Origin: Antiquaquibacter soli
Lineage (GTDB): Bacteria > Actinomycetota > Actinomycetes > Actinomycetales > Microbacteriaceae
Length of the DNA stretch: 64,000 nt
NCBI RefSeq assembly: GCF_030580675.1
Contig: NZ_JAUQUB010000001.1
Location: 186,001 to 250,000 of the forward strand
Direction: 5' to 3'
Shown here: positions 1,940 to 5,012 of the stretch, one piece after another
How positions within the stretch are numbered: position 1 is the stretch's first letter
Layout: the number at the start of each line of letters is the position of its first letter
Notes under the pieces: model-generated
Told to the model about the DNA's origin: nothing
The model's database searches: none
What the model saw: the letters and a program-made list of their open reading frames with translations, nothing else
Translations under genes and position numbers: made by a program

Positions 1940-2893
1940 ATGCCCGCAGCCTCCGACCCCGCAGAGACCTACTCCTACCTGGGTCCCGCGGGCACGTTCA
2001 CGGAGGCAGCGCTCAAGCAGGTGGAGGCCGCCGCGGGCAAGGCCTGGCGCCCGGTGAACAATGTCGGAGAGGCGCTCGACGACGTCACGTCGGGACGCAG
2101 TACCGCGGCCATGATCGCGATCGAGAACTCGATCGAAGGCGGGGTGAGCGCCACCCAGGACGCGCTCGCCACGATCCCCGACCTGCGGATCGTCGGGGAG
2201 TACCTCGTTCCCGTCAACTTCGTGCTCGTCGCGAGGCCGGGCACCGCGCTCGCGGACGTGAAGGTCGTGAACGCGCATCCGGTCGCCTACGCGCAGACGC
2301 ACCGCTGGCTCGAGCGCGAACTGCCGAGCCACGGGCACATCCCGGCGACGTCGAACGTCGCGGCCGCAGCATCCCTCCTCGACGGCTCGACGGCGGATGC
2401 CGCGGTCGCGCCGCCCGGCATCACCGACCACCACGACCTCACCGTGCTCGCCGAGGGCATCGGCGACAACCCCAACGCCGTCACGCGGTTCGTGCTCGTC
2501 TCGCGGACGACCGCGCTTCCGGAGCCGACGGGTGCCGACAAGACCTCCATCATCGCCGAGCTGCCGGATGACACGGCCGGCCGCCTGCTCGAGATGCTCG
2601 AGCAGTTCGCCACCCGCGGGGTCAACATGTCGCTGCTCGAATCGCGCCCGATCGGCGATGCGCTCGGACGCTACCGGTTCGTCATCGACCTCGACGGCCA
2701 CATCCTCGACGAGCGGGTCGCGGACGCCCTCCTCGGCCTCAAGCGTTTCTCACCCAACGTGGTGTTCCTCGGCAGCTACCCGCGCGCCGACAAGCAGGCC
2801 ATCACGGTGACGAACCGCTACTCGAACGAGTCGTTCGTGGAGGCGCGCGACTGGCTGCGCGGCCTCATCGCGGGCGAGCCTTCCGCGCACTAG
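1940..2893 (+). CDS. pheA: Prephenate dehydratase
   Basis: Converts prephenate to phenylpyruvate in phenylalanine synthesis. The 317-residue protein starts at ATG 1940 (MPAASDP); the frame is open further upstream, but that extension overlaps the divergent pgm start and is not family-like. The prephenate dehydratase domain begins YSYLGPAGTFTEAAL and contains the catalytic-site NAVTRF near residue 180. A C-terminal ACT domain follows, with the phenylalanine-binding ESRP motif (LLESRPIGDALGRYRF), so feedback inhibition by Phe is expected. It is a stand-alone dehydratase without chorismate mutase, as usual in Actinobacteria. Stop TAG is 18 bases before a large palindrome (2912-2969). Confidence 0.95.
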   Translation: MPAASDPAETYSYLGPAGTFTEAALKQVEAAAGKAWRPVNNVGEALDDVTSGRSTAAMIAIENSIEGGVSATQDALATIPDLRIVGEYLVPVNFVLVARPGTALADVKVVNAHPVAYAQTHRWLERELPSHGHIPATSNVAAAASLLDGSTADAAVAPPGITDHHDLTVLAEGIGDNPNAVTRFVLVSRTTALPEPTGADKTSIIAELPDDTAGRLLEMLEQFATRGVNMSLLESRPIGDALGRYRFVIDLDGHILDERVADALLGLKRFSPNVVFLGSYPRADKQAITVTNRYSNESFVEARDWLRGLIAGEPSAH

Positions 2894-2911
2894 CTGTCCC
2901 TGCCATACGCG

Positions 2912-2969
2912 CGAGTGTTCCGATTTGGTCGGAATAACGGCCCTCATTCCGACCAAATCGGAACATTCG
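2912..2969. repeat. 58-bp palindromic element, copy 1
   Basis: Two 24-base arms with one mismatch surround a 10-base loop; the core reads GTTCCGATTTGGTCGGAAT. It lies between the convergent ends of pheA and the DUF559 gene, whose stop codon is 4 bases away. A second copy lies at 3917-3974 in inverted orientation. No T-run follows the stem, so it is not a standard intrinsic terminator, though it could act as one. Confidence 0.9.
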
Positions 2970-2973
2970 CGAT

Positions 2974-3858
2974 TCAGCGGGCCAGCAGTGCCCGGATCCG
3001 CGTCACGAGCTCCGCGGGGTCCCTCAAGTCGTCGGCGTTGAGCTCGACGACCTTCCAGCCCTGTGCCTCGAGGCGGGTCCGACGCGTCATGTCCCGTCGC
3101 CACTGAGCCCGCGTGCGGTGATAGTCGCCCTGGTACTCGAGAATTACCTGTTGGTCGCGGAACAGGAAGTCCGGCCTCGTCTGCTGGCCGGTGTCGGTAT
3201 CCACCAGGACGTGGTTTATCTCCGCAGTCGGGAGGTCGGACCTGGCGAGGATGACCCGCAATAGCGACTCCGGGCGGGACTCCGCGCGTTCGCTCAGCAG
3301 CGCGAGCGCTTCCCGCGCGAGGCGGATACCGCGGGCGCCCTCAGACCGCGCGATGAGCCGTGCTAGCTCGACCCGATCGGTGAATGGGGCGCGGTGGTGG
3401 ATCAGGTAATCGCCCACGGCTACCAGGTCGCCGAGACCGAGTTGGGTCGCGAGATCAACCCAGGTCCGCGCCGGAGAGCTCAGTCGGAGACCGCCCCACG
3501 TCGTGACGTCGGAATCGACGATGTCGAGCCGGTGTCCGATCACGTCGCGCGAGTGGAGCCGGGCGGCTGGGCTCGCCACAGAAACGTGCACCTTCGGCTC
3601 CAACTCCAGACCCCACGGGAGGGGCGCTCCCCAGAGCAGTGCCGCTGTTGAGTGGCTGAAGAACCCGTGCGCGGGAATGCGCAGGGCGAGCATCCGGCAC
3701 TTTTCTTCCACGGTCGGGGGCCGCTCGCCCGCGTGACGGAGCCCGTGGAGGGAATGCAGATCCCGCGCTCGAAGGCGACGAGCCGAGACCCCGGACTCCA
3801 TCGCCGCAGACGTCGAGAACTGCTCGGGGAGGGGAGGGAGGGGCTGGGGTAGACGCAT
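2974..3858 (-). CDS. DUF559 (Vsr-like) endonuclease-fold protein with AbiEi-like N-terminal part
   Basis: The 294-residue protein ends in a DUF559-type restriction-endonuclease-fold domain: PES with Glu197, RPDF with Asp230, and ILEYQG with Glu241 and Gln243, followed by HRTRAQWRRDMTRRTRLEAQ and WKVVELNADDL. These fit the E, PD and ExQ/K positions of PD-(D/E)XK nucleases. The N-terminal half (FFSHSTAALLWGAPLP, SPARTWVDLA) resembles the type IV antitoxin AbiEi-like region often fused to DUF559 in Actinobacteria. The ATG is at 3858, with 58 bases between it and the right palindrome; the stop is 4 bases from the left one. Substrate and role are unknown. Confidence 0.75.
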   Translation of the reverse strand: MRLPQPLPPLPEQFSTSAAMESGVSARRLRARDLHSLHGLRHAGERPPTVEEKCRMLALRIPAHGFFSHSTAALLWGAPLPWGLELEPKVHVSVASPAARLHSRDVIGHRLDIVDSDVTTWGGLRLSSPARTWVDLATQLGLGDLVAVGDYLIHHRAPFTDRVELARLIARSEGARGIRLAREALALLSERAESRPESLLRVILARSDLPTAEINHVLVDTDTGQQTRPDFLFRDQQVILEYQGDYHRTRAQWRRDMTRRTRLEAQGWKVVELNADDLRDPAELVTRIRALLAR

Positions 3859-3916
3859 GGGTACACCCTGTCCGACCGGGCAGCCTCGCGAGGATTGCTC
3901 TGCACAGTTACCGCGC

Positions 3917-3974
3917 CGAGTGTTCCGATTTGGTCGCTATGAGGGCGACTATTCCGACAAAATCGGAACACTCG
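3917..3974. repeat. 58-bp palindromic element, copy 2 (inverted)
   Basis: Same architecture as the element at 2912-2969: 24-base arms, here with three mismatches, and a 10-base loop. It sits between the stop of the lipid kinase gene (4023) and the start of the DUF559 gene (3858), both on the minus strand. The loop half GCCCTC is shared with copy 1 when this copy is read as reverse complement. Confidence 0.9.
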
Positions 3975-4022
3975 TGGGCTGTGCGGTAGCGCGGGCTGAG
4001 CGGGCGCGGCACGTGCCCGCGC

Positions 4023-5012
4023 TCAGGAGCCCGCGGGCACCTTCACGGTGAGGGCCCCTGCATCCACCCACGTGCGCACGGTCTTCGCCTCGCCGAACTC
4101 GTCGCCGTCGAGCTGGAACTCCTGCGGCGTCGCGACGGTCATGGTGATGTCGCGGGTGCGCAGGTACGTGACATCCCGCGCGTCCTTGGAGAGGTCGATG
4201 AGCTTGCGGCCGAGGGCGGACTTGCGCAGCACCCCGTTCTCCCACGCGACCTTCTGCCACACCTTCGCCCAGCCGAACGGCCCCTGCGGGCGGAGGGCGG
4301 CGACGTCGAGCATCCCGTCGTCGGGCTCCGCGTCGGGCATGAGGAGGAAGCCGCCGGGCAGCACGCCGCAATTGCCGATGATGATCGTGTGCACGCTGAG
4401 GGCGCGCTGCGGCCCGCCGTCGAGGCTGTACTGCACGCGCACGGGCTTGAGCTCCGGGAGCGACCGCGCGATGCCGTCGATGTAGGCGAGCCAGCCGACC
4501 GCCTTCTTGAGCTTCGTCGACGTGTTCTTGATCATCTTCGCGTCGAGCCCCAGGCCCGCCATCACCAGGAACGCGTGCTCCTCGGTCGAGCCATCGGCCC
4601 GCGTGATCTCCGAGATGCCGAGGTCGATGACGCGGTCCTCACCGGTGAACGCGGCGGCGATCGCGGTGTCGAGGTCGGTGAGCGGCAGTTCCAGGTTGCG
4701 GGCGAGCAGGTTGCCGGTGCCGCTCGCGACGATGCAGAGCGGGATGCCCGTGTCCCGCAGTCCCTCGGCGACGGCTCGCACCGTGCCGTCGCCCCCCGCA
4801 GCGAGCACCACGGAGGCGCCGCGCCGCACCGCGGACGCGACGATGCCCTGGCCCGGGTCATCCTCAGTCGTCTCGAACCACGCCGTCTGACCCCAACCCG
4901 CGTCCTCCGCCGCCGACGTCACCGAGGCTTTGAGCTTCTCGGCGTCGACCTTGATGGGGTTGTAGACGACAGCGGCGATCGGCTTCTTCTGCCCGTCCTG
5001 AGGGTTCGCCAC
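4023..5012 (-). CDS. Diacylglycerol/lipid kinase family protein (DagK/YegS type)
   Basis: A 329-residue lipid kinase of the DagK_cat family, expected to phosphorylate diacylglycerol or a related lipid at the inner face of the membrane. The nucleotide-binding motif AAGGDGTVRAVAEGL is near residue 70, followed by GSGTGNLLARNLELP. A C-terminal YegS-like beta domain follows (GNCGVLPGGFLLMPDAEPDDGML split across the sequence). The only conventional start before this homology is GTG at 5012 (MANPQDGQKKP); a GGGAGG lies about 15 bases upstream, rather far. It is divergent from serS, with 38 bases between the starts. Confidence 0.9.
   Translation of the reverse strand: MANPQDGQKKPIAAVVYNPIKVDAEKLKASVTSAAEDAGWGQTAWFETTEDDPGQGIVASAVRRGASVVLAAGGDGTVRAVAEGLRDTGIPLCIVASGTGNLLARNLELPLTDLDTAIAAAFTGEDRVIDLGISEITRADGSTEEHAFLVMAGLGLDAKMIKNTSTKLKKAVGWLAYIDGIARSLPELKPVRVQYSLDGGPQRALSVHTIIIGNCGVLPGGFLLMPDAEPDDGMLDVAALRPQGPFGWAKVWQKVAWENGVLRKSALGRKLIDLSKDARDVTYLRTRDITMTVATPQEFQLDGDEFGEAKTVRTWVDAGALTVKVPAGS

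Follow-up and report, generated by a model that had tools for sequence, protein, structure and literature searches.

Between pheA and dagK, the window (the entire 64,000-nt stretch of Antiquaquibacter soli DNA that was analysed) carries a single gene enclosed by two palindromes. The features of the locus are as follows.

2912..3974, no strand: whole unit of palindrome, gene and palindrome; missing at the orthologous pheA-dagK gap in 17/27 congeners
2912..2969, no strand: downstream palindrome, 58 bp with core CGAGTGTTCCGATTTGGTCGGAAT, where pheA and the nuclease gene end convergently
2974..3858, minus strand: gene for a 294-aa AbiEi-like + DUF559 (EDxHD/Vsr-like) protein
2977..3282, minus strand: EDxHD/Vsr-like nuclease domain, residues 193-294, with E197, D230, E241, H247 and D256
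3292..3849, minus strand: AbiEi-like part, residues 4-189; PADLOC AbiEi E 1.8e-8, VIA-align Z 10.8 to 6y8q
3917..3974, no strand: upstream palindrome, 58 bp, in the gap from the nuclease gene start to the dagK stop

Since the nuclease gene (2974-3858) lies on the minus strand, the palindromes stand 4 nt past its stop and 58 nt ahead of its start, and the arrangement given in the original prediction (two 58-bp palindromes with 10-base loops boxing one gene at these gaps) was reproduced in both coordinates and gaps. Their 24-nt arms are paired at 23/24 positions in the downstream copy (2912-2969) and at 21/24 in the upstream copy (3917-3974), each around a 10-nt loop, and folding as single-stranded DNA gave z-scores of -8.8 and -6.4 against dinucleotide shuffles, with 0/200 shuffles equal. 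Compared with each other, the two copies are identical at 51/58 positions (88%) when one is inverted, as had been counted before, and at 48/58 (83%) in direct reading, where the earlier count had been 47. The core of the downstream palindrome (CGAGTGTTCCGATTTGGTCGGAAT) is also dispersed elsewhere in the genome. Searches for a known RNA family returned only sub-threshold matches to unrelated families, and a phage origin was rejected as well, the protein having no phage or viral-contig match and the palindrome no viral-contig match.

In Pfam, PADLOC and NCBIfam the encoded protein matched DUF559 (Pfam, E 1.3e-5), AbiEi (PADLOC, E 1.8e-8) and, below the cut-off, MTES_1575, a family described earlier as a Vsr-fold REase (PMC3710099), and nothing else. 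An AlphaFold2 model (pLDDT 91.6, pTM 0.85) aligned over residues 194-294 with the catalytic domain of the homing endonuclease I-Bth0305I (3r3p; Z 12.6, rmsd 2.3, 92 residues aligned) and with Vsr (1cw0; Z 10.8), so that the Vsr-like nuclease domain proposed from the letters alone is borne out by the fold. Residues 4-189 aligned with AbiEi (6y8q; Z 10.8, rmsd 6.7, 173 residues aligned), and this is the presumed palindrome-binding part. The catalytic residues E197, D230, H247 and D256 are all retained in 80/81 homologues, which indicates that the predicted enzyme is probably active.

These 81 intact homologues, collected within the genus and the order and by scanning GTDB genomes, are spread across Micrococcales and were compared with 125 control genes taken from the homologue loci and the window. 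A matching pair of ~58-bp palindromes was found at no fewer than 52/81 homologues and at 1/125 control genes; the boxing is thus not due to chance. The count of 52 is a lower bound, as one locus (L113) is boxed on inspection yet was missed by the automatic criterion; the 29 homologues below the criterion include such cases together with others that are unboxed. Boxed genes are distributed over the entire protein tree, with the palindromes at a median of 62 nt ahead of the start and 3 nt past the stop. Cores differ from unit to unit while the two palindromes of one unit match each other: 96% of pairs within a unit reach an arm match of at least 0.75, as against 1.7% of pairs between units. Units with more similar proteins also have more similar palindromes (Mantel r 0.37, p 0.0005), and co-evolution of protein and palindrome would have left each lineage with its own core. 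The inverted orientation of the ends, which the original prediction had treated as a defining feature, did not generalise, since 16 of the 52 boxed units match better inverted and 29 direct, with 7 tied. Target-site duplications were not found at the units (flanking direct repeats 2.63 nt, compared with 2.51 nt in the control). A classical insertion sequence was therefore rejected as an identity, both terminal inverted repeats of fixed orientation and target-site duplications being absent.

In the genome from which the window comes (G000; 3.2 Mb in 14 contigs) there are further intact full-length paralogues, each with at least one palindrome and each with its own core: those at C1:315317, C1:320058 and C8:68867 have palindrome pairs and that at C9:19828 a single palindrome. 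At G000:C10:74649-75466 (L014, L018) lies an AbiEi-DUF559 paralogue whose frame is broken and whose palindromes have decayed, a state that would be expected of a selfish element dying out. Relatives of the gene also occur on three Arthrobacter megaplasmids, one of which (L284) has a matching palindrome pair.

Palindromes of this type also occur alone. In G000, exact TTCCGA..TCGGAA boxes with a constant inner length of 46 bp are present at 16 places and a covariance model finds ~20 palindromes; in three species, about 10-20 solos are dispersed over each genome. An uptake signal was ruled out, as all 30 exact 12-mers CGAGTGTTCCGA in G000 fall inside palindromes. Within the G000 family there is almost no variation in the outer arms and a GYCG box; at four inner positions the two arms fail to pair in about 40% of cells, which suggests that the arm sequence is recognised and not pairing alone. 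Related genomes share the geometry and have cores of their own (window-like in G023, GTTGCCA in G022, TTCGCCA in G003, TTGCCCAC in G015 and TTGCGCAAAC in G024). The protein is encoded by 14/27 congeners, and matches to the palindrome model were obtained in 8, all among these 14, and in 0/13 congeners without the protein, a comparison limited by the model having been built from G000.

The best match of 57 solos was a unit of their own genome in 42 cases, a unit of another genome in 12 and tied in 3. Those of G024 match its second unit and not its pheA-dagK unit. Solos that depart from the resident unit mostly belong to a AAGTGCCG inner-arm subfamily in G000 and G023, members of which (e.g., G000:C1:131589 and G023:C1:2918896) are nearer in their inner arm to a unit in another family (G029, CGAGTGCTCCGTAAGTGCCG) than to the resident one and are possibly relics of a lost unit. 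Solos have 41 gene ends at a distance of up to 60 nt, 34 of them 3' and 7 of them 5' ends, and 19/42 solos lie between convergent genes and 3/42 between divergent genes; this bias could reflect an insertion preference or the loss of other insertions. Palindromes less than 5 kb apart exceed expectation in G000 (3 observed, 0.43 expected, p 0.009), G023 (6, 0.68) and G022 (4, 0.22). Some solo pairs 0.7-0.9 kb apart box single ordinary genes, namely an SDR, a 195-aa protein and a 202-aa YajQ-like protein (G000:C1:131589/C1:132491, L035; G023:C1:716708/717588; G023:C1:918377/919121).

Orthologous loci were compared in the genus, where all 27 congeners have dagK with an adjoining convergent pheA. 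Seven of them (G000, G022, G023, G007, G020, G015 and G024) carry an insert of 1.07-1.18 kb in this gap, always composed of palindrome, gene and palindrome, with differing cores. In 17/27 the gap is empty: the stops overlap or are at most 176 bp apart, and the nuclease gene and boxing pair are absent. The block is thus present in some relatives and absent from others, as had been proposed as a check, and the empty sites could in part represent losses. One gap counted as empty (G009, L147) contains a 19-nt half-palindrome, GGCAGAAGTGGCGAACTCG, with the same sequence as one arm in the G003 unit. G009 yielded no homologue of the protein at E 1e-20, and the half-palindrome is a probable scar. Other inserts of 0.7-1.1 kb, in which the nuclease gene was undetected, occupy the gap in G008 (L143), G004 (L146) and G002 (L164) and suggest that it is prone to insertion.

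The unit of this clade in G003 is located at C23:78649, while dagK of that genome is at C1:422122. In the protein tree the G003 unit branches from within the pheA-dagK units (support 99/89); a unit has therefore relocated, either by transposition or through transfer. Between lexA and metE, G000 has a solo that its nearest relatives G022, G023, G008 and G013 lack, their gene ends there being about 16-35 bp apart. The original prediction had held that palindromes standing alone at many unrelated loci as ordinary terminators would refute a mobile unit. They do stand alone at many loci, but that consequence does not follow, since lexA-metE, the one solo site compared among relatives, holds an insertion specific to one lineage, and most solos match the unit resident in their genome. 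A search for an empty site in Cryobacterium met a non-syntenic left flank and gave no junction, and an empty junction at high nucleotide identity was not obtained. The unit is shared by three Plantibacter strains; in one, Plantibacter sp. VKM Ac-1784 (L191, 3936-5430), an extra 1.5-kb segment with SDR and TetR genes adjoins it and is closed by a third palindrome, and this segment is absent from L190, a relative 95% identical to L191.

The recurrence across actinobacteria, the scattered solos and the clean absence from relatives make the unit look like a small mobile element that has not been described. We consider it probable that it is a minimal selfish element whose nuclease recognises its own palindromes, with movement deduced from comparative genomics. 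The AbiEi-like part would bind the cognate palindrome of its own element, and the C-terminal EDxHD (Vsr-like) domain would nick or cut the DNA at or beside it; breakage and host repair would then copy either a solo palindrome or the whole palindrome-gene-palindrome unit, and new copies would land in intergenic sites, mostly beside gene 3' ends. What the computation shows is the boxed anatomy, the cognate cores, the scattered solos, a presence or absence that differs by lineage, and the fold; from these we infer that the protein binds the palindrome, where it cuts and that copying proceeds through repair. The recognition step is consistent with matched cores, solos and co-evolution, cutting with the modelled fold and conserved residues, and for copying it is the presence/absence patterns that are suggestive. 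The arm pattern expected from units homing into a centrally cut solo was absent. The minimal mobile unit of nuclease gene and hairpin ends that had been predicted gains support from the pheA-dagK comparison and from solos mostly bearing the resident core.

Alternatively, the palindromes might be operators through which the AbiEi-like part regulates its own gene, with the dispersed copies as a regulon and the nuclease domain acting elsewhere. AbiEi, an antitoxin, binds inverted repeats in the promoter of its own gene, and the AbiEi fold of the N-terminal part and the upstream palindrome, at a median of 62 nt ahead of the start codon, would fit such a role. A second matching palindrome just past the stop codon in each unit would not, nor would the predominance of 3' over 5' gene ends near solos, with so few solos in divergent gaps, or the clean absence of units and one solo from orthologous sites, and we regard autoregulation as unlikely. 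Less probable still are terminators or structural gene-end hairpins whose mutual likeness arose by gene conversion or chance. The palindromes fold as strong hairpins, and the solos sit at gene 3' ends, often between convergent genes; yet there is no T-tract signal (0 terminators of G+C-rich hairpin and T-run type in 2800-4100), the upstream palindrome precedes the gene, and cores are specific to the protein lineage while control genes at the same loci had matching pairs in 1/125 cases. Ordinary terminators were rejected on the lack of a T-tract signal and on the protein-specific cores, and a terminator role may have been acquired after insertion of a palindrome.

A defence nuclease that attacks foreign DNA, with palindromes marking or protecting the host genome or restraining the enzyme, would agree with the patchiness of the gene among relatives and with the occurrence of AbiEi and Vsr-like domains in defence contexts (PADLOC AbiEi match; PMC3710099). 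Solos are, however, few and clustered, unlike an evenly spread protective mark, no defence partner gene adjoins the window unit, and the entire unit is inserted between core genes, which leaves this reading improbable. We give equally little credence to passive spread by homologous recombination between palindromes and gene transfer, with the nuclease uninvolved. The palindrome-bounded 1.5-kb segment by which the Plantibacter strains L191 and L190 differ could be a product of such repeat recombination, but passive spread leaves unexplained why it is this nuclease family that has the boxes and solos, why protein and palindrome covary and why the active site is universally conserved.

A selfish element with a palindrome-recognising nuclease remains our preferred reading, and the boxed unit is real, widespread and, as judged by genome comparison, apparently mobile. 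With somewhat less confidence, we favour the view that it represents a class of prokaryotic mobile element not described before and frequent in Micrococcales: an AbiEi-like DNA-binding domain fused to a homing-type EDxHD nuclease would spread its gene and cognate ~58-bp solos, and co-evolution would rewrite target specificity. In searches of open-access PMC texts, no paper was found that ties DUF559 or AbiEi-nuclease genes to palindromes. REP palindromes have so far been tied to a single enzyme class, the HUH transposases; if our reading is correct, an unrelated homing-type nuclease independently evolved a lifestyle of gene plus dispersed palindromes in Actinobacteria. It would also hint at what a widespread "domain of unknown function" (AbiEi-DUF559 proteins) does, account for a class of hairpins scattered at the ends of actinobacterial genes, and provide a natural series of protein-palindrome pairs with differing specificities, useful for studies of sequence recognition.

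Among known systems, EDxHD homing endonucleases (I-Bth0305I) and Vsr share fold and catalytic residues with the C-terminal domain, and the window protein has both. Known examples act in introns or as the nicking enzyme of mismatch repair and, unlike the unit, have neither an AbiEi-like part nor flanking palindromes and dispersed solos. The AbiEi of type IV toxin-antitoxin systems shares its fold and a sequence match with the N-terminal part of the protein, whereas the window gene is fused to a nuclease and has palindromes on both sides; the AbiEii nucleotidyltransferase toxin is absent beside it, the neighbours being pheA and dagK. Neither system has palindrome boxing accompanied by solos. A comparable arrangement is found in REP/RAYT systems (REPtrons; TIRtrons/TIRYT; PMC3733652, PMC8266576), where, as here, an enzyme gene stands between palindromes of its own, solo extragenic palindromes are numerous and lie mostly downstream of coding regions, and enzyme and repeat form repeat-specific pairs. 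RAYTs are HUH tyrosine transposases with GTAG-tagged repeats of 20-40 bp (PMC3733652, PMC8266576), and GTAG repeats have been reported from Proteobacteria, Cyanobacteria, Chloroflexi and the PVC group (PMC3733652). The window protein, by contrast, is AbiEi-like and EDxHD/Vsr-like and no HUH transposase, and its palindromes measure ~58 bp with a ~10-nt loop, end in CGAG..CTCG and carry no GTAG tag. The REP/RAYT-like logic with a different enzyme that the original prediction had proposed is thus what we find: flanked by its repeats and accompanied by dispersed solos, the unit works like a REPtron but is not one, since its enzyme is an AbiEi-like protein with an EDxHD nuclease domain in place of an HUH transposase and its repeats are of another kind.
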